The notes under the pieces are model-generated. The model was given only the letters and a program-made list of their open reading frames with translations. It was not told the DNA's origin and made no database searches. This document shows positions 1,482-57,602 of a stretch of DNA of 64,000 nt, in pieces. Source of the DNA: Dehalococcoidia bacterium. Its GTDB lineage: Bacteria; Chloroflexota; Dehalococcoidia; Lucifugimonadales; Lucifugimonadaceae. Location of the stretch: positions 1 to 64,000 of the forward strand of contig PBVQ01000008.1 of NCBI GenBank assembly GCA_002728715.1, read 5' to 3'. Position 1 is the first letter of the stretch. Each line of letters opens with the position of its first letter. Both the position numbers and the translations under genes were made by a program.

Positions 1482-2388
1482 TAGTATCCAAATCTCTTAA
1501 TAAAATTAAATTTTTTGAAATAGAATTAATTAATTTTTCTTTTTTCTTTACATTCCATTTATAAAAACCTTCATTTGTTGGAAAGCCTAATTTTTTTTGA
1601 ATAACTTTCTCCTCTATTAAAGTTGATGGAGAATTTTGATTTGATAAATCTGGAAATATTTCTAATAATATTTTTTCTACTAAATCCCATCCAATCTGCT
1701 CCCAAATTTCGAAAGGCCCTGCCACAGAAAGCCTTCTACCAAATGTATTTTTTACTATATTATCTATATCCTCAGGTGTTGCAATTTCCTGTTCTACTAA
1801 ATTAATTGATTCTCTCTGAATAGCAGCCTGTAATCTGTTTGCGATAAATCCATTAATTTCTTTTTTTATCAATATAGGTTGTTTATTCATCTTGTAAAAT
1901 AGATTTTTAACTTTGTCTATATTAATTGAATTTGTTTGCAAAGCTGGCACTATTTCTACCAGAGGAATATTATAGGGTGGATTAAAATAATGCGTTACAA
2001 AAAACCGATCAGGATTATCAAGATTTTTTGACAATTTAGAAGGAAGTAATGATGAGGTGTTACTAAAAATTAGTGAGTTCTTATCTAAAAAAATTTCTAA
2101 CCTAGAATATAAATCTACTTTTGCCTGATAATTTTCATTGATTGCTTCAACAACAATTTCTGCATTTACAACACTATCTTTTAAATTTTTTATAAATGTT
2201 ATTTTTCTATAAGAATCACAATTATCTGAACTGGAAATCAGTTTATCAATCTTATTTTTTGCAATCTTAAGATTTTTTAAAGATATATCATACAGAGTAA
2301 CATCATGACCAAATTTCGCAAATTCAAAAGCTATTCCATGCCCCATTAATCCTGCACCAATAACTGTTATATTAAATTTTTTAGACAG
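1462..2388 (-). CDS. 3-hydroxyacyl-CoA dehydrogenase family protein, tandem paralogue with a non-ATG start
   Basis: Second NAD-dependent 3HCDH/L-gulonate-3-dehydrogenase-like protein, clearly paralogous to its downstream neighbour (shared HYFNPPY, GFIANRLQAAIQRE and GRRLSVAGPFE). The first ATG, at 2346, falls inside the dinucleotide-binding loop (GAGLMGHG) and would delete the first beta strand, so it cannot be the true start. The open frame continues upstream through SKKFNITVIGAGL to a TAG at 2395-2397. The only NTG codon there is CTG at 2388, preceded by a GGTAGG sequence, so I place the start at CTG 2388; ATT 2391 or another rare start is possible. The extended gene overlaps the end of the upstream dehydratase gene (stop at 2381) by 8 bases, suggesting translational coupling. 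Confidence 0.8.
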   Translation of the reverse strand: MSKKFNITVIGAGLMGHGIAFEFAKFGHDVTLYDISLKNLKIAKNKIDKLISSSDNCDSYRKITFIKNLKDSVVNAEIVVEAINENYQAKVDLYSRLEIFLDKNSLIFSNTSSLLPSKLSKNLDNPDRFFVTHYFNPPYNIPLVEIVPALQTNSINIDKVKNLFYKMNKQPILIKKEINGFIANRLQAAIQRESINLVEQEIATPEDIDNIVKNTFGRRLSVAGPFEIWEQIGWDLVEKILLEIFPDLSNQNSPSTLIEEKVIQKKLGFPTNEGFYKWNVKKKEKLINSISKNLILLRDLDTNESYKK

Positions 2389-3535
2389 AATAACCTACCG
2401 ATCCATCATCTCTTATAGGAATTTTTATATCTAGCCTAGTTTCAAAATTTTGTTTCTTTAATTTATCTAATTCTATATCTATCCCTAATCCTATTTTTTC
2501 CGAAACTTCAATATATCCTCCATTTCTTTTCCAGGAAGTTTTTATCATACTGTTTACTGGTGATTCATCTATTGTTGAAAATTCTTGAGTTATAAAATTA
2601 GGTATAGTTGAATCTATTGTACAAGCTGCAGCAGTAAGGACTGGACCTAGAAAATTATGTGTAACAAGAGCAGAGTGATATGATTCAGCAATTGATGCTA
2701 TTTTTTTTACATGTGTTATTCCTCCGGCAAGACCTAAATCAGGCCTTGCATACTGGCTTCCACCAGCTTCAAACATTTCTCTAAACTCCCATATATTATG
2801 CATTCTCTCACCGTTTGCCAGAGGTAAGGCAGTTTTATTTGCTATTTCTCCTTGTGACTTAATTGAATCTATCTGTATAGGATCTTCATAAAAAAGAGGA
2901 TTAAACTCTTTTAGTTCTTCAGCAAGTGCAATTGCATTCATTGGTGTAAGTTTTCTATGAATTTCTAGAATTATATCAACATCCAATCCTGCCCCTTCTC
3001 GAAGAGCCGCAACATTATCTTTTGTCTCTCTAATTAGCCTGGATATAGTCATTGACTGATATCCATCTGGAAGTGGATCAATTTTTACAGCTGTATAACC
3101 TTCGTTTCTAGCATCTATGGCATTAAGTCTTAAGTTTTCTGCAGTTGTACCTAAATCAGAAGCATCAGGCCTAGAACCACCCATCAACAAATGTAGCCTG
3201 ATTTTATCTCTAACTTTACCTCCAATTAGCATCCAAATTGGAGCACTAAGATATTTTCCTTTTATATCCCATAAAGCAATATCTACAGCACTTATTGCAG
3301 CATTTAATATAGAGCCCCGGAAAGGACCCATTCTATACAAATGCTGCCAATGATGTTCAATATTTAATGGATTTTTACCAATTAAATATCTCTCAAAAGT
3401 ATTTATTACTGTGTGTACTGCCTCCATATAACCCCAGCAGGCTGATTGACCTATACCCTCTATTCCATCATCGGTAATTATTCTTACAAAATGACTATTG
3501 CCTGAAAGAATTGATTCAATTTTATCTATTTTCAT
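2381..3535 (-). CDS. Enolase-superfamily sugar-acid dehydratase (D-galactonate dehydratase-like)
   Basis: Mandelate racemase/muconate lactonizing enzyme-type protein of 384 residues, expected to remove water from an aldonic acid to give a 2-keto-3-deoxy sugar acid. An N-terminal capping domain precedes the TIM barrel. Visible catalytic blocks are VKID, the first metal-ligand strand with a His (LEIHRK), the second ligand (YEDP), the third (NGER), then RPDLGLAGG and the general-base His in THNFLGP. The LEIHRK...THNFLGP arrangement resembles galactonate/gluconate-type dehydratases (DgoD group) rather than mandelate racemase. It starts at ATG 3535 and is followed by two dehydrogenase genes that could act on sugar acids. 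The exact substrate cannot be read from sequence. Confidence 0.85.
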   Translation of the reverse strand: MKIDKIESILSGNSHFVRIITDDGIEGIGQSACWGYMEAVHTVINTFERYLIGKNPLNIEHHWQHLYRMGPFRGSILNAAISAVDIALWDIKGKYLSAPIWMLIGGKVRDKIRLHLLMGGSRPDASDLGTTAENLRLNAIDARNEGYTAVKIDPLPDGYQSMTISRLIRETKDNVAALREGAGLDVDIILEIHRKLTPMNAIALAEELKEFNPLFYEDPIQIDSIKSQGEIANKTALPLANGERMHNIWEFREMFEAGGSQYARPDLGLAGGITHVKKIASIAESYHSALVTHNFLGPVLTAAACTIDSTIPNFITQEFSTIDESPVNSMIKTSWKRNGGYIEVSEKIGLGIDIELDKLKKQNFETRLDIKIPIRDDGSVGYSV

Positions 3536-12231: not shown

Positions 12232-14505
12232 ATGGTTGCAACTTTCGAACCAAAAAAAGACTACAAAGTTGTTGGTACAAGGCCAATAAGACATGATGGA
12301 TATGACAAAGTCACAGGTAAAGCAATTTATGGTGCAGACATTAAATTACCTGGGTTGATTTGGGGTTCTGTAGCTCGAAGTCCTCATGCTCATGCTAAAA
12401 TCATCTCTATTGACACAACTGAAGCAAAAAAAATGGATGGAGTTCTTGCTGTAATCACGCATGAAGATATGCCAAAAGCTGAAAATAAGATGGTTGACCT
12501 TGGTGAAGGAAGTGTAAATTTCAAATGGGCTTCAGAAAAGCTTATGGCAAACAATAAGGTTATATACAAGGGACAACCAGTAGCTGCAATTGCTGCTATA
12601 GACAGGCATGTAGCCGAAGAAGCAGCAAGAAAAATTTTTGTTGAATATGAAGTATTAGACTCTGTTACTAACGTTGTTGATGCTATGAAAGAAAATGCTC
12701 CCATCATACTTGAGGACTTAATAGGCGATGATCTTGGAGAAAAAATCCACAATACAAATATGTCTGAGCACATAAGACATGACTTTGGGGATGTTGAAAA
12801 ATCAATGGAAGATTCTGATCATATTTTTGAGGGTGAATTTAACATGGAAATGGTTCATCAAGGCTATATTGAACCCCATAATGCAACTGCAGCTTGGAAT
12901 GAAGACGATCAAATAAAAATTTGGACCAGTACTCAAGGGGCTTTTCCGGCAAGAACACAGATAGCTGGAATATTGCAGGTCAATGTTTCTCAGGTAAAAG
13001 TAACTCCATTAGAGATCGGCGGAGGATTTGGTGGTAAAATTCCAGTTTATTTTGAACCAATAGCTGCTATATTATCAAAAAAATCTGGACGTCCAGTAAA
13101 AATGGTTATGGAAAGAACAGCAATTTTTGAAACAACAGGACCAACACCTGGAGGAAAAATCAAGATTAAATTAGGTGTTAATAATGATATGAAAATCAAC
13201 TCAGCGATTAGCGAAATATGGTTTGAAGCTGGTGCGAATCCTGGAGGAATGATTGGGCCTGCAGCAATGTGTATTTATGCACCTTACAATATTCCTAATA
13301 TGAGAATTGACGCATGGGATATTTTAGTAAATAAGCCAAAAATAGCCGCATACAGAGCTCCAGGTTCCCCGCAAGTTGCTTTTGCCATGGAATCTTTAGT
13401 TGATGAATTATGTCAAGAACTTAGTTGGGATTCTCTTGAATTTCGAATAAAAAATGCATCTAAATCAGGAACAAGACGAGGCGACGGTGTAAGATTTTCA
13501 AAAATTGGTTTAGAGGAAGTATTATCTGCTGCTAAAGCTTCAGATCACTGGAATTCTCCACTTGGTACTCCATCTCCTGGAATAAAAAGAGGAAGGGGTA
13601 TAGCTAGTGGATATTGGTTCAACATTGGATTGAAATCAGCTGCAAACTTAGCTGTTAATAGTGATGGTAGCGTTATATTGACAGAAGGATCTACAGATAT
13701 TGGAGGTTCAAGAGCCTCAATGGCAATGCATGTTGCTGAGGTACTAGGAATTGATGCCCATGATGTAAAACCAAACATTGTTGATACAGATTCAATTGGA
13801 TTTACAGATGTTACAGGAGGATCAAGAACAACATATGCAACAGGATATGCATGTTGGGAAGCCGCAAATAATCTAGTTATTGAACTTAAAAAAAGAGTTT
13901 CAATTTTATGGGATGTAACCCCTGAAGAAATTTCATTTATTGACGGTGTTTTTAGTTATAATAATGAGGAAAAAATAATTTCTTTCAAAGATTTATCAAG
14001 TAAATTAGGTGACTTAGGTGGCCCTGCTACATCTACTGGTAGTGTTGATCTTTCCTCAGCCGGTGACGGTTTTGGAATGCATATAGTTGACTTAGATATT
14101 GATGTAGAAACAGGAAAAACAGATGTTGTAAGATATACAGCTATTCAGGATGTTGGTACCGCTATTCACCCTTCTTATGTTGAAGGTCAACTTCAAGGTG
14201 GAGCTGTACAAGGTATTGGGTGGGCATTAAATGAAGAATACTACATGCTGGATAATGGTTCTATGGCTAATTCAAGTTTTCTAGATTACAGAATGCCAAC
14301 TTCTTTAGATTTACCCAAAATTGATACTATACTTGTAGAGGTCCCAAATCCTTTACACCCATATGGAGTTAGAGGAGTAGGGGAGGTTCCAATTTGCCCT
14401 CCTATACCAGCTATAGCCAATGCTATAAAAAATGCAATAGGTGTAAGGCTTTATGATACACCTATGAATGCTGGTAGAATAATTAAAAACATAAGTATAA
14501 AATAG
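12232..14505 (+). CDS. Molybdenum hydroxylase molybdopterin-binding large subunit, copy 1
   Basis: Catalytic subunit of a xanthine-oxidase-family hydroxylase, 757 residues. An N-terminal ald_Xan_dh_C domain (GKAIYGADIKLPGLIWG) is followed by the molybdopterin-binding region with GGGFGGK, AYRAPGSPQ, and the C-terminal GVRGVGEVP that carries the family's catalytic Glu. AYRAPGSPQ is unlike the AYRCSFR active-site loop of form I CO dehydrogenase, so CO oxidation is unlikely; an aldehyde or N-heterocyclic/aromatic hydroxylase is more plausible. A strong AGGAGGAA site precedes the ATG. A paralogue of the same length follows after 74 bases and may be an alternative catalytic subunit sharing the same small subunits. 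Substrate unknown. Confidence 0.92.
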   Translation: MVATFEPKKDYKVVGTRPIRHDGYDKVTGKAIYGADIKLPGLIWGSVARSPHAHAKIISIDTTEAKKMDGVLAVITHEDMPKAENKMVDLGEGSVNFKWASEKLMANNKVIYKGQPVAAIAAIDRHVAEEAARKIFVEYEVLDSVTNVVDAMKENAPIILEDLIGDDLGEKIHNTNMSEHIRHDFGDVEKSMEDSDHIFEGEFNMEMVHQGYIEPHNATAAWNEDDQIKIWTSTQGAFPARTQIAGILQVNVSQVKVTPLEIGGGFGGKIPVYFEPIAAILSKKSGRPVKMVMERTAIFETTGPTPGGKIKIKLGVNNDMKINSAISEIWFEAGANPGGMIGPAAMCIYAPYNIPNMRIDAWDILVNKPKIAAYRAPGSPQVAFAMESLVDELCQELSWDSLEFRIKNASKSGTRRGDGVRFSKIGLEEVLSAAKASDHWNSPLGTPSPGIKRGRGIASGYWFNIGLKSAANLAVNSDGSVILTEGSTDIGGSRASMAMHVAEVLGIDAHDVKPNIVDTDSIGFTDVTGGSRTTYATGYACWEAANNLVIELKKRVSILWDVTPEEISFIDGVFSYNNEEKIISFKDLSSKLGDLGGPATSTGSVDLSSAGDGFGMHIVDLDIDVETGKTDVVRYTAIQDVGTAIHPSYVEGQLQGGAVQGIGWALNEEYYMLDNGSMANSSFLDYRMPTSLDLPKIDTILVEVPNPLHPYGVRGVGEVPICPPIPAIANAIKNAIGVRLYDTPMNAGRIIKNISIK

Positions 14506-14579: not shown

Positions 14580-16847
14580 ATGGTTGCAACCCACGAAAAC
14601 AAAAATAAATATAAAGTAATTGGTAAATCTCCAATAAGACATGATGGTGTAGACAAGGTAACTGGTAGGGCAACTTATGGTGCAGATATTAAAGTTCCAG
14701 GTTTAATATGGGGTGATGTTCTTAGAAGCCCTCATCCTCATGCAAGAATACTCAGCATAGATACTTCAAAAGCTGAATCTATGGATGGGGTATTTGCGGT
14801 AGTCACTAATAAAGATTTTCCTAATGTTGAAGAAAAAGAAGTATCTACAGGCGAAGATGTAGTTAACCTAAAAAGAGACCAAGCAAACATAATGGCTTAT
14901 GATAAAGTTCATTATAAAGGTCATGTTATTGCAGGTGTAGCCGCAATAGATCGTAATACTGCTCAGGAAGCTATAAAAAAAATAGAAGTGAAATATGAGG
15001 TTCTCAAACATATTTCCGATGTAGATTCTGCTATGGCCAAAAATGCCCCAATTATCCTAGAAAGCCTAATTGGCGATCACCTTGGAGAAAATGTCCCTAA
15101 CACAAATGTTGCAAAAATATTTAGGCATGAATTTGGTGATGTAGAACAAGCTTTCAAAGATTCTGATTGCGTTATTGAAAGAACATTTACAATGTCTATG
15201 ATTCACCAAGGTTATATTGAGCCACACAACGCTACTGCAGTATGGGGACAAGATGGAAAAATTAACTTATGGGCTAGTACACAAGGCTCTTTCGGTGTTA
15301 GAGCTCAAACTTCAGGGATGCTAGGTATACCAGAGTCAAAAATAAAAGTAAATTATGTAGAAATAGGTGGTGGATTTGGTGGAAAAACGAAAGTTTATTT
15401 AGAACCAATAGCAGCATTATTATCTAAAAAATCTGGCGGTAGACCCGTAAAACTTGTTATGGATAGATCATCCGTATTTGAAGCAACTGGACCTGCTCCA
15501 GGCGGAAAAGTCAGAATGAAAATTGGAGCAAATAAAGATGGAAAAATAACTGCTGCTGAAACAGATATTATGTTTGAGTCTGGTGGTTATCCTGGTTCTG
15601 CTGTAGCAGCAGGTAGTATATGTGTTTTTGCTTGCTATAATCTGACTAACTCGAAGATTACAGGTTACGATATTCTAGTTAATAAACCTAAATCGGCTGC
15701 TTACAGAGCACCTGGTTCTCCTCAAGTTTCTTTTGCTATAGAGTCTGTAATTGACGAAATTTGTGAGGAATTATCCTTAGATAAATTACAATTCAGAATT
15801 GACAATGCAAGTAAGGAAGGGACAAGAAGAGGTGATGGTGTTAAGTTCATAAGAATTGGTCTAGAAGAATGTTTAGAAGCAGTTAAAAGTTCTGATCACT
15901 GGAATTCTCCTCTAGGTGAAGCTCCAAAAGGCAAAGCTAGAGGTAGAGGTTTAGCAACAGGATACTGGATGAACGGTGGCGGTAAATCTACTTGTGACTT
16001 GATGCTCAATGATGATGGAAAAGTAACGCTAAATGAAGGTTCTGCAGATATTGGTGGGACAAGAACTTCTATTTCAATGCAAGCAGCAGAGGTTCTAGGA
16101 ATTCCCGTTGAAGATTTTCACCCAAGTGTTCCAGATACAGATAGTATAGGTTTTACTGGAGTTACTGGAGGTTCTAGGACCACGTATGCAACTGGACTTG
16201 CCGCCTATAACGCAGCGCAAAAATTAGTTGAAGAACTAAAAAATAGATTATCAACAATTTGGGAAGCAGATTCTGATCAAATTAACTTCTCTAACGGAAC
16301 ATTTTCCTTTGAGAATGAATCTATACATATTCAAGATTTAGCCGGAAAACTAGACCCAACTGGTGGGCCGGCAACATCAACTGCTTCCGTTAACCTTGAT
16401 TCAGCAGGTAATGCATTCGGAGCTCATATTTGTGACCTTGAAGTTGATTTAGAAACTGGTAAAACCGATGTAATTAGATATACTGCAGTACAAGATGTAG
16501 GAACTGCAGTTTATCCCCAATACTGTGAAGGACAAATTCAAGGTGGAGTTGTTCAAGGACTAGGCTGGGCACTAAATGAAGAATATTTCATCACTGAAGA
16601 CGGTGTAATGGCAAATAAATCATATCTTGATTACAGAATGCCAACCTCGTTAGATATGCCAATGATTGATGCCATCATGGTTGAAGTACCAAACCCACTT
16701 CACCCATTCGGTGTCAGAGGTGTTGGAGAAGTTACGTTAGCTCCTCCTCTTGCAGCTGCCGCATTAGCAATTAAAGAAGCAACTGGAAAAAGACACTTCG
16801 ACTTGCCTGTAAAACCAGGAAGAATCATCGATTTATATAAATCATAA
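14580..16847 (+). CDS. Molybdenum hydroxylase molybdopterin-binding large subunit, copy 2
   Basis: Tandem paralogue of the preceding gene, 755 residues. Both begin MVAT, continue with PIRHDG and TYGADIK-type blocks, and share GGGFGGK, AYRAPGSPQ and GVRGVGEV. Differences are concentrated in stretches expected to line the substrate channel, for instance YFEPIAAILSKKSG versus YLEPIAALLSKKSGG and CIYAPYNIPN versus CVFACYNLTN. This suggests divergence of substrate range rather than redundancy. No second FAD or 2Fe-2S gene follows, so it probably uses the upstream small subunits. The 74-base gap before it contains A+T-rich sequence that might hold a separate promoter, but I see no convincing one. 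Confidence 0.92.
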   Translation: MVATHENKNKYKVIGKSPIRHDGVDKVTGRATYGADIKVPGLIWGDVLRSPHPHARILSIDTSKAESMDGVFAVVTNKDFPNVEEKEVSTGEDVVNLKRDQANIMAYDKVHYKGHVIAGVAAIDRNTAQEAIKKIEVKYEVLKHISDVDSAMAKNAPIILESLIGDHLGENVPNTNVAKIFRHEFGDVEQAFKDSDCVIERTFTMSMIHQGYIEPHNATAVWGQDGKINLWASTQGSFGVRAQTSGMLGIPESKIKVNYVEIGGGFGGKTKVYLEPIAALLSKKSGGRPVKLVMDRSSVFEATGPAPGGKVRMKIGANKDGKITAAETDIMFESGGYPGSAVAAGSICVFACYNLTNSKITGYDILVNKPKSAAYRAPGSPQVSFAIESVIDEICEELSLDKLQFRIDNASKEGTRRGDGVKFIRIGLEECLEAVKSSDHWNSPLGEAPKGKARGRGLATGYWMNGGGKSTCDLMLNDDGKVTLNEGSADIGGTRTSISMQAAEVLGIPVEDFHPSVPDTDSIGFTGVTGGSRTTYATGLAAYNAAQKLVEELKNRLSTIWEADSDQINFSNGTFSFENESIHIQDLAGKLDPTGGPATSTASVNLDSAGNAFGAHICDLEVDLETGKTDVIRYTAVQDVGTAVYPQYCEGQIQGGVVQGLGWALNEEYFITEDGVMANKSYLDYRMPTSLDMPMIDAIMVEVPNPLHPFGVRGVGEVTLAPPLAAAALAIKEATGKRHFDLPVKPGRIIDLYKS

Positions 16848-37744: not shown

Positions 37745-37838
37745 GATTGTTTCCCATGTTGGACAGTTTTTGAAATTACTTTTTGGAATGTAGAAAATTA
37801 AAGTATGAAAATTTATTTTATATTGAAAGGCGTAAAAA

Positions 37839-38732
37839 TTGAGAATACCTATAAACGAAATATTTCCTAATCCAGATATTCCTAAATCAGAAAAAAAAGA
37901 AAATTCTAAAGGGCATAACAAATTCAAAAAGAACCCTGTAGTTCTTGCAACAAAAAATGGTTACGTTTTACTAGCTGGTACTAGCAAAATATCCTATGCA
38001 AAAGAAATGGGAGAAATCTCCATAGAATGTACTGTTAAAGAAAATGTGAATGAGCAGGAAAAATTTGAGCTTTTATTATCTGAAAATTATCACTCTTCAC
38101 TTATGTCACCTATGGATCTTGGTGGATCATTTATTAAATATAGAGAAAAATATCATATTACACAACAAGAGTTAGCACGAAGAACAGGAATAACCCCTGG
38201 AACAATCCATCATTATGAAAGCCTAATTAGAACTTTAAATCCTAAGCTTGGCGAAGCTTTGTCTTCAGGTTTATTGACATTTAAAGAAGCAAGATCTATA
38301 GCAGATTTAGATGATCATGAAAGACAAATGGAAATAGCTAAGCCGTTCCTTGAGGGAAAATTATCAAGTGTTTATGTAGAAAAAATAGTTGGTCGAGCAA
38401 AAGTAGCCTCGATGCTAGACGTAGATGAAATAATTGACGAGGTAGTAAATGGAAAAAAATCTCATATTGTGAGTAAAAATGATAATTTGTCTAAATTAGA
38501 AAGAAAGCCTAGCACTACTAGTACTGAATTAATTGAAAACTCAATATTAAAAATTGCAGGAGAATTAGAAGCGTTACAGATAAAAAACATTCCTGAGTAT
38601 AGAAGGTTGAAGTTGATTAGCAGTCTGAGGATATTGGAAACTAGACTTAAGTATTCTTTAAACAATTTAAATGGGGGGTTTGCATCTAAGTATAACACTC
38701 CAAAATCATACACAAATAGAGTAAAGGTTTAA
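37839..38732 (+). CDS. ParB/KorB-like DNA-binding protein (orphan)
   Basis: A 297-residue protein with the layout of ParB/Spo0J/Noc proteins. The N-terminal region shows a degraded ParB-N block (VVLATKNGYVLLAGTSKISYAKEMG) where classical CTPases have GERR. A HTH follows: ITQQELARRTGITPGTIHHYES, then the KorB-type helical region. Without the GERRxRA motif, CTP hydrolysis is doubtful. No parA neighbour is present, so this is not a standard partition pair; it may be a transcription factor. TTG start at 37839, preceded by GAAAGG. Confidence 0.8.
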   Translation: MRIPINEIFPNPDIPKSEKKENSKGHNKFKKNPVVLATKNGYVLLAGTSKISYAKEMGEISIECTVKENVNEQEKFELLLSENYHSSLMSPMDLGGSFIKYREKYHITQQELARRTGITPGTIHHYESLIRTLNPKLGEALSSGLLTFKEARSIADLDDHERQMEIAKPFLEGKLSSVYVEKIVGRAKVASMLDVDEIIDEVVNGKKSHIVSKNDNLSKLERKPSTTSTELIENSILKIAGELEALQIKNIPEYRRLKLISSLRILETRLKYSLNNLNGGFASKYNTPKSYTNRVKV

Positions 38733-47658: not shown

Positions 47659-47956
47659 AAATATGCTAAAGCAAGCACAACAAATGCAAGCTAAATTAGC
47701 TCAAATACAAGAGGAAATAGCCAATACAAAAACAGAATCAACATCTGGAGGAGGCGTAGTAAAGGCAGTTGTGATTGGAACTTCTAAAATAGAATCTATA
47801 CATATAGATCCAAAAGCAGTAGATCCAGACGATGTTGAAATGCTACAAGACTTAATTTTAGCAGCTGTGAATGAGGCTTTTGAAAATGCACAAAAACTGG
47901 CTAATGAAAAAATGGGTCAAATAACTGGAGGGTTAAACATCCCAGGATTGATGTAA
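47651..47956 (+). CDS. YbaB/EbfC family nucleoid-associated protein
   Basis: Small DNA-binding protein of 101 residues that associates with the nucleoid. It has the pattern RNMLKQAQQMQAKLAQIQEE, the central GGGVVKAVVIGT, and the DLILAAVNEAFENAQ helix. The dnaX-ybaB-recR order is widely conserved. The start overlaps dnaX and the stop is 7 bases before recR. Confidence 0.95.
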   Translation: MNRNMLKQAQQMQAKLAQIQEEIANTKTESTSGGGVVKAVVIGTSKIESIHIDPKAVDPDDVEMLQDLILAAVNEAFENAQKLANEKMGQITGGLNIPGLM

Positions 47957-47963
47957 TTATAAT

Positions 47964-48572
47964 ATGAATAATCATAATTCTACTGTTCCAGCTGTAACAA
48001 GATTAATAGAGGCTTTTCATAGGCTTCCTGGAGTTGGCCCAAAAACAGCTCAAAGATATACTTACCATTTAATCAAGATGCCTGAAGAAATAGCAAAAGA
48101 ATTTTCAGAAGCAGTTTTAGGTATAAAAGAAAAAATTACTTTTTGTAATCTATGCTCAAATATTTCACAAGAAGAAATTTGTTTATTGTGCAGTAATAGT
48201 AATAGAGATAATTCAAAAATTTGTGTTGTTGAAGAACCCCTAGATATAATACCGATTGAAAGAACTAGAGCATATAATGGGCTTTACCAAGTCCTACACG
48301 GTGTTATATCACCTATGAATGGAATAGGTCCAGAAAATTTAAAAATAGATAAATTATTAGAAAGAATTAAATCTCAAAACATTGAAGAAATTATCATTGC
48401 AACTAACCCAAAACTTGAAGGTGAAGCAACAGCAATGTATATCCAAAATCTAGTAGGACCATTAAAAATAAAAATCACCAGGCTTGCAAGAGGTCTTCCA
48501 AGTGGTTCAGATATAGAATATGCTGATGATTCAACCTTAGAACACGCATTAAATAGTAGATCTGAAATTTAG
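47964..48572 (+). CDS. recR: Recombination protein RecR
   Basis: Part of the RecFOR pathway that loads RecA on gapped DNA. The 202-residue protein has the HhH region (RLPGVGPKTAQRYTYHL), a four-Cys zinc finger (CNLCSN...CLLC) and the Toprim domain (CVVEEPLDI, followed by TNPKLEGEATAMYI and GLPSGSDIEYAD). All family marks are present. It follows ybaB and precedes recO. Confidence 0.96.
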   Translation: MNNHNSTVPAVTRLIEAFHRLPGVGPKTAQRYTYHLIKMPEEIAKEFSEAVLGIKEKITFCNLCSNISQEEICLLCSNSNRDNSKICVVEEPLDIIPIERTRAYNGLYQVLHGVISPMNGIGPENLKIDKLLERIKSQNIEEIIIATNPKLEGEATAMYIQNLVGPLKIKITRLARGLPSGSDIEYADDSTLEHALNSRSEI

Positions 48573-52344: not shown

Positions 52345-53541
52345 TTAAAATATTTTAACTTCTTCAACTTTATTTTCATCTATTATCATTCCTAAGCCAT
52401 TATGGTTTGGAATTTTAATAGTACCGTTAATTGGTATTACTGGTGTTTTCAAAAAATGTTGATGAACTAAGTTCCACTTAATTAAGTATTCTTGATACGG
52501 TGTGTGTATTGGAGACTGTGATAATGAAAAGTGTATTCCTGCATTAGTTGAATGACCATGAGGAATGGTAATTAAGTCTGCGGTTGTCGCTATATTTGCA
52601 ATTTTTATTACCTCTGACAACCCTCCAGCCCAATAAATATCGGGTTGAAGAATATCTAGTGCTTCTGCCTTAATAAACTCATTTAAACCCCAGCGAGTGT
52701 AGTGATGCTCTCCTCCAGAAATAGGAATTAATGTGGAATTTTTTATCTTTCTGTAAGAATCAATTCTATCTGGCATTGCAACTTCTTCTAGCCACCTTGG
52801 ATTAAATTCTTCAATATATTTTGTAAGTTTTAACAAATAATTAACGTCCATAGACTGCCAGCAATCTAGCATTATATCGTAATCATCACCAAGCTCTAAT
52901 CTAAGCGTTTGAACTAGCTGAATATTTTTCTTTAGTCCTTCGTGTCCAGACATCGGTCCATGTCTAAAAAACCACTTTTGAGCAGTATACCCTTGAGACT
53001 TAAATTCTTTTGCTCTTTCTTTAACTAAACCCATATCTTCTACATTAAATCCCAGCATAGATGCATATGCTGGAACAGTTTTTCGCGTAGGTCCTCCAAG
53101 AATTTTATAAACAGGTGTTTGATAATAATTACCTTTAAGGTCCCACAAAGCATTGTCTATTGCGCTTATAGCAATCATATTATTTCCATGGCGACCATGA
53201 ACAGACCTTCTGTGCATTACATCCCATAAATACTCTATGGCGAGAGGATCTTGATTTAATATATGTTGGGATAATTCATTTTTTATTATGTATGCTATTG
53301 ATTCATCAAATGGGCCAGAAATGCCTGTTACATCTTCGTCAGTTATTATAAATAAAAAAAATGCATTTATACTTAAATCATTTTTTGATCCACGAGAAAT
53401 TTTTTTTTGTGTGTGACGAAATTTTTGAGATCTATATTCTTCATAAATATCTATTGGCTGAACAAGTCTTTCTTCCCAAAAAATTTCTTTAGTTTTTAAC
53501 GTTCCAAAAAATTGCTTAATTTGTATTTTTTCTATCTTCAT
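52345..53541 (-). CDS. L-rhamnonate dehydratase-like enolase-superfamily protein
   Basis: Enolase-superfamily enzyme of 398 residues, closest in motifs to L-rhamnonate dehydratase, which makes 2-keto-3-deoxy-L-rhamnonate. Landmarks are VHGRHGNN, the metal ligands in LDCWQSMDVNYL, WLEEVAMPD and GGEHHYTRWGLNE, the LQPDIYWAGGLSE strand, and the His in IPHGHST. The DCW...DxNY and GEHxxTRWG pattern is the rhamnonate group's. I begin at ATG 53541 (GGAAAA upstream). It stands convergent to uvrA, far from the mutarotase and lactonase genes that could share its pathway. Confidence 0.87.
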   Translation of the reverse strand: MKIEKIQIKQFFGTLKTKEIFWEERLVQPIDIYEEYRSQKFRHTQKKISRGSKNDLSINAFFLFIITDEDVTGISGPFDESIAYIIKNELSQHILNQDPLAIEYLWDVMHRRSVHGRHGNNMIAISAIDNALWDLKGNYYQTPVYKILGGPTRKTVPAYASMLGFNVEDMGLVKERAKEFKSQGYTAQKWFFRHGPMSGHEGLKKNIQLVQTLRLELGDDYDIMLDCWQSMDVNYLLKLTKYIEEFNPRWLEEVAMPDRIDSYRKIKNSTLIPISGGEHHYTRWGLNEFIKAEALDILQPDIYWAGGLSEVIKIANIATTADLITIPHGHSTNAGIHFSLSQSPIHTPYQEYLIKWNLVHQHFLKTPVIPINGTIKIPNHNGLGMIIDENKVEEVKIF

Positions 53542-53615
53542 AATTTTTCCAATATTTCTTAAATGATTATTGTACAATATTAAAGTGTTTTTAAGATAAT
53601 AAGAAGAATAAAAGA

Positions 53616-56374: not shown

Positions 56375-56677
56375 ATGAATAAAATAGCACACCTAAGAGT
56401 TTATTCAATAAAAAAAGGAATGGAAACAGATTGGATAAAACTGTTTAATAAAAAGCTTGTTCCAGAAATGGAAAAAGCTGGAATTGTTGTAGAAACAGCC
56501 TGGATGGATAAAGAAAACTCTAAGTTTATTTGGATAAGATCTTATGGTTCAACAGAAAAAGATATTGAAGAAAAAGAAAAATTATTTTATGGAAGCAAAT
56601 GGTGGAAAGAAAATGTAAATTATGTAAGAGGCCACCTAGAGGAAAATAGAGAGATTACTGTTATTTATTCAATCTAA
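56375..56677 (+). CDS. NIPSNAP-family protein
   Basis: A 100-residue protein with a ferredoxin-like fold pattern (HLRVYSIKKGMETDWIKLF, then FIWIRSYGS, and a closing strand). The LRVYxxxxG...W opening is typical of NIPSNAP proteins, of uncertain function; many are found near oxygenase or catabolic genes. It starts 11 bases after ffh with AAAGGAAA upstream. Its 3' end would overlap the restored reading frame of fmt on the other strand by 9 bases. Confidence 0.78.
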   Translation: MNKIAHLRVYSIKKGMETDWIKLFNKKLVPEMEKAGIVVETAWMDKENSKFIWIRSYGSTEKDIEEKEKLFYGSKWWKENVNYVRGHLEENREITVIYSI

Positions 56678-57602
56678 GTAGGATCCATTAAGGTTAGAAT
56701 AACCATTTATTGCTTGATCGGATCTCATAATTTTTTTATTCTCAAATTGAATTTTTTTTTATTTCAAGATATTTATTTTGTGTTGAAACAAAAATTTTCT
56801 TATCGATAAATTGAACTAAACCAGGTTTTTCTGTTGATTGAATTTGTGTTTCTGCAACATCGATAATTTTTATCCTTTTATTATTCCAAAATGTAAATGT
56901 TCCAGGCCATTTGTCATATGCTCTAACCTTTCTTATTATTTCAATATCTTTTTCATTCCATTTTATTTTTCCGTCTTTCTTGTTAATTTTTTTGGTTATA
57001 GATGCATTATTATTATTTTGAGATGTGAAACTTTGATTCCCTTCTTCAATGTTACGTAAAATATGAGGAAGCATGTCTGAACCTAACCTAAAGAGTTTTT
57101 TCTGTAGCACAGTTGTTGAATCATCTAATGCTATTGACACTTCATCCGACTTTTCTAAAATAGGCCCGGTATCCATGTTTTCATCTATCTTCATTATTGT
57201 TACACCAGTAAATTTTTCTCCTGCCAAAATAGCTGAGGCTACGGGACTTGGACCTCTAAATTTTGGTAGCAATGAAGGGTGAATGTTTATAGCACCATAT
57301 TTTGGTATTTATAATATCTCTTTGGGTATTATTATTCCATAAGAAGATACTATAAATATATCAGCTTTGGTTTTTCTGAAATATCTTATTAGCTCATTGT
57401 CGTTTTTCAAAGAAGGAGGTTTGTTTATACTTATTTTATTTTTAATTGCATAATTTTCAATTGATGTAAGATTTGTGTTTTGACCCCTTCTCAATGATTT
57501 AGATGTTTTTGTAAATATTGCAAAAATTTCAAAATTGTTTTTTTTCAATATATCTAACGTATATATTGAATCTTCAGTTGAGCCAAAATAAATAATTTTC
57601 AT
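56669..57602 (-). pseudogene. fmt: Methionyl-tRNA formyltransferase, interrupted by an in-frame stop and a frameshift
   Basis: Fmt formylates initiator Met-tRNA. Frame 57602-57309 encodes the N-terminal part, ending IIIPKEIL-TAA (57309-57311). Without a frame change, the reading continues IPKYGAINIHPSLLP, KFRGPSP, then NMDTGPIL, the standard Fmt core with Asn and His in INIHPSLLP and Asp in ENMDTG. The second lesion is a run of nine A at 56752-56760 (minus strand): nine A give KKNSI-stop at 56742, eight would continue KKIQFENKKIMRSDQAINGYS to a stop at 56669, making 310 codons plus stop, the canonical length. Thus two lesions split an otherwise complete gene. Possible causes are pseudogenisation, transcriptional slippage in the A run, or base-calling error. 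The N-terminal loop FGSTED is also slightly unusual. Confidence 0.85.

Follow-up and report, generated by a model that had tools for sequence, protein, structure and literature searches.

Two point lesions in fmt of a draft marine Chloroflexi genome: probable consensus artefacts rather than loss of initiator formylation

The gene encoding methionyl-tRNA formyltransferase, fmt, is broken twice in the window (the whole 64-kb stretch of DNA analysed here, part of a 183-kb contig, C3), and comparison with related sequences suggests that both lesions are probably errors or artefacts of the consensus and do not reflect a loss of initiator formylation. In other words, the sequence does contain them, but the organism itself most likely does not. 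The latter, judging by its congeners, is a marine Chloroflexi bacterium represented by a draft metagenome-assembled genome (MAG) of 1.35 Mb in 33 contigs, 83.8% complete.

The fmt locus and its counterparts in congeners

Read on the minus strand, the Fmt frame starts with the ATG at 57602 and is interrupted by an in-frame stop and by a run of nine A, exactly where a preliminary description of this DNA had placed them:

56669 to 57602, minus strand: fmt (methionyl-tRNA formyltransferase), frame broken twice; identified from strand reading, NCBIfam and intact 310-aa orthologues in three congeners
57312 to 57602, minus strand: first 97 codons of the Fmt frame (5' portion); TIGR00460 positions 1-97, E 7e-13
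57309 to 57311, minus strand: codon 98 reads as an in-frame TAA; congeners G001 and G003 have GAA here and G002 has AGT
56754 to 57308, minus strand: 3' portion of the frame as far as the A run, containing the catalytic residues; TIGR00460 positions 100-283, E 9e-46
56752 to 56760, minus strand: nine consecutive A, against eight in G001 and G003; G002 lacks the extra base

The two halves match the NCBIfam family TIGR00460 in order, reaching position 283 of the 315 of the profile, and both its N-terminal formyltransferase domain and its C-terminal domain are matched. The catalytic Asn, His and Asp, which had been described as retained, are indeed found within INIHPSLLPKFRGPSP and DENMDTGP and are common to the congeners. 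Past the nine-A run the Fmt frame terminates with ...EIKKNSI and a stop, and the alternative frame would stop at the TGA 56671-56669. A convergent plus-strand ORF of 100 aa (56375-56677), which the congeners also have, shares 9 bases with the 3' end of fmt.

Concerning the relatives, fmt is located at the same place in three congeners, two of which are the sister MAGs PAXI01 (G001, Chloroflexi bacterium isolate SAT13) and PASL01 (G003, isolate SAT182), and the flanking regions align at 79-90% identity over 14 kb. All three carry a continuous, syntenic fmt of 310 residues, the length previously proposed as canonical, with a sense codon at the site homologous to codon 98 and without either lesion. 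Matches to PF00551 were found in all 60 relatives searched and, among the matches listed, only the window copy has an internal stop.

A survey of point lesions across the assembly

The preliminary description had considered, among other options, a fresh inactivation of fmt in an otherwise healthy housekeeping region, and had remarked that a loss of formylation would be unusual. This picture is not supported, as similar lesions occur in purL, uvrC and hisC of the same genome and in purC and mazG of a sister MAG. We aligned 513 kb of the window genome to G001, covering 458 genes that encode 100 aa or more, and read the disagreements individually. About ten genes in the window genome and about five in G001 are broken, in all cases by isolated point lesions within otherwise full-length genes; in the window assembly, single-base breaks affect some 2% of genes, unrelated core genes among them. 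Names are taken from NCBIfam, except for the RDD protein, which was named by eye. Besides fmt, the genes concerned include the following, purC and mazG being two of those broken in G001:

purL, window genome: CAA to TAA
uvrC, window genome, L150:8973-10811 (contig C7): two in-frame stops, GAG to TAG and GAA to TAA
hisC, window genome: TAA, with two or more bases of the codon differing from G001
sulfatase, window genome: GAA to TAA
enolase-superfamily dehydratase, window genome: GAA to TAA
RDD protein, window genome: TGG to TAG
N-acyl-D-amino-acid deacylase-like amidohydrolase, L064:6225-7812 (contig C3 70225-71812): eight A to nine A, as in fmt
CoA transferase, window genome: one base gained in an A run
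250-aa protein with no family name, window genome: one base gained in an A run
purC, G001 (PAXI01), region homologous to L147:7648-8574: frameshift; intact in the window genome
mazG, G001 (PAXI01), region homologous to L069:5746-6507: GAA to TAA; intact in the window genome

Three further suspects were left out of the count: 47701-48042 is the shadow of an opposite-strand gene, 75293-76540 has a 3' extension open in G001 only, and 37747-38732 (parB-like) is intact from the start used here.

The same types of lesion recur, namely GAA to TAA in four genes, eight to nine A in a second gene besides fmt and several one-base gains in A runs. Two genes, fmt and uvrC, carry double lesions, which is above uniform scatter (simulated P about 0.009) and may reflect either patches of poor consensus or real pseudogenes; with its two stops, uvrC shows that fmt is not alone in having been hit twice. 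Six of the eight nonsense changes are or may be G:C to T:A, whereas the neutral spectrum would predict 38% (P 0.04); one of the six, in hisC, is ambiguous because more than one base differs. A signature of oxidative damage was considered suggestive but weak and was not retained. Ambiguous bases number 120 in 707 kb of the window genome, and none is present in the 64-kb window.

Several enolase-superfamily (mandelate racemase-like) genes were also observed (window 2381-3535 and 52345-53577, and L064:16819-18150), as well as two neighbouring genes, at window positions 12232-14505 and 14580-16847, for large oxidoreductase subunits that resemble each other and look by eye like the xanthine/CO dehydrogenase type. 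In SAR202, enzyme families are reported to have diversified (PMC6946804).

With comparable one-base lesions spread over this assembly and over a sister MAG, a loss specific to fmt is not supported; moreover, the joint loss of purL, hisC, uvrC and fmt is hard to square with a living free-living bacterium, so that consensus errors or minority variants fit better. The gene is an ordinary, otherwise constrained fmt, in which the draft consensus bears two unrelated point lesions; these would belong to a genome-wide background of isolated stops and one-base A-run changes. This background would most likely stem from errors of sequencing or assembly, or from minority variants that became fixed in the consensus, and a normal Fmt would most likely be made. 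We infer that reads would not bear out the TAA and the nine A. The accessions PAXI01 and PASL01 fall within the range of a Tara Oceans set, for which Minimus2 was used to merge contigs from many samples, with 95% as the lowest accepted identity (PMC5769542). Of the three options left by the preliminary description, assembly error is the best supported.

Alternative readings: inactivation, recoding and strain mixture

It is also conceivable, if unlikely, that fmt has been truly and very recently inactivated, that unformylated Met-tRNA initiates translation and that an intact def has not yet decayed. The two lesions in fmt are independent and both missing from the congeners, their clustering is slightly above chance, as reported above, and some bacteria can do without fmt (PMC7949028). 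However, selection on the gene does not show the expected trace. We counted amino-acid and silent changes private to one lineage using G002 as the outgroup, and found ratios of 8:7 for the window lineage, against 18:19 for G001 and 15:15 for G003; fmt is fast-evolving in all three lineages, and no raised ratio was found on the window branch. A three-taxon count with G003 as the outgroup (21 amino-acid to 20 silent changes, against a median ratio of 0.38) had pointed to relaxed selection, but the excess vanished with G002. No decay of fmt is visible, since the window branch resembles both sister branches.

The remaining components of formylation were also considered. The deformylase gene, def, is present and intact beside a priA-like gene. 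Initiator tRNA, which in E. coli has C1-A72, is marked by a GGG/CCC anticodon stem and by the lack of pairing between positions 1 and 72. A tRNA-Met with such a stem and an unpaired 1:72 was found in the window genome, which by these hallmarks appears to keep a formylation-type initiator tRNA. The probable initiator tRNA gene lies at L130:423-497 (contig C9) and has T at positions 1 and 72. What the 3GC pairs and position 1:72 do is discussed in PMC7949028. A PF00551 search of the 84%-complete genome found no second intact copy. The only other candidate, on contig C28, has an intact frame of 251 codons (247 aa by the ORF list), but it matches the domain only partly, adjoins a ClpX-like ORF and reads by eye as PurN-type, and it was rejected.

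The intact def and the initiator tRNA features argue against inactivation, as do the PF00551 matches in every relative searched. So do the lesions in purL, hisC and uvrC, which are just as damaging: that a free-living cell should have lost all of these genes is implausible. That a free-living marine Chloroflexi lineage has lost formylation very recently, through two hits in fmt, with def and a formylation-type initiator tRNA still intact, is accordingly a scenario to which we give rather low credence.

The idea that Fmt is made despite the lesions, transcriptional slippage at the nine-A run restoring the 3' frame and the TAA at codon 98 being read through, had also been put forward and appears very improbable. 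Slippage at A runs is known in bacteria (PMC1088944), and the change from eight to nine A is shared with the broken amidohydrolase. A gene rescued in this way would have nine or more A at the frameshift and transcripts of mixed length; the run itself is present in fmt. Nevertheless, in the part of the genome examined, which holds 592 genes, 78 in-frame runs of nine A lie within intact genes, and TAA, the commonest stop, ends 369 of the 592, so that neither recoding nor slippage needs to be invoked. No UAA-reading (ochre-suppressor) tRNA was found among the 38 typed of 39 tRNA matches in the 84%-complete genome, the remaining one being a weak match (30 bits, C24) without ARAGORN confirmation. 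Moreover, slippage is no remedy for a stop at codon 98, and the congeners need neither device. Finally, that the stop and the extra A truly exist in a minority strain, fmt being intact in most cells, would suit a metagenome consensus in a genus whose other MAGs probably come from a pipeline merging contigs at 95% identity (PMC5769542), and a genome whose identity to G001 and G003 varies gene by gene, but it is the least probable reading, as many independent broken variants would have to enter one consensus, and with present data it is inseparable from plain error.

Implications and comparison with known systems

Coming back to error or consensus artefact as the preferred explanation, the case calls for caution in inferring gene loss from MAGs: in the drafts compared here, isolated disabling point lesions are found in roughly 1-2% of genes, core genes included. 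Read support should be required before any biological conclusion is drawn from a broken housekeeping gene in a draft MAG. If the loss were true, on the other hand, it would offer a snapshot of formylation vanishing ahead of deformylase.

Compared with known Fmt proteins (TIGR00460, PF00551), the window gene is alike in the order of its halves, in cover up to profile position 283, in its catalytic residues and in its synteny with the congener genes, while its consensus differs by a single in-frame stop and a surplus A. In AT-rich endosymbionts, poly(A)-tract frameshifts are rescued by transcriptional slippage. The window fmt resembles these cases in its frameshift at a nine-A run and in its AT-rich genome; here, however, such runs are common in intact genes, the other lesion is a stop and the sequence gives no sign that slippage is used. 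Concerning the formylation-free bacteria (Pseudomonas, Bacillus and others; PMC7949028), the likeness is that a loss of fmt would be tolerated, whereas the window genome retains def, the initiator tRNA features and the constraint on fmt.
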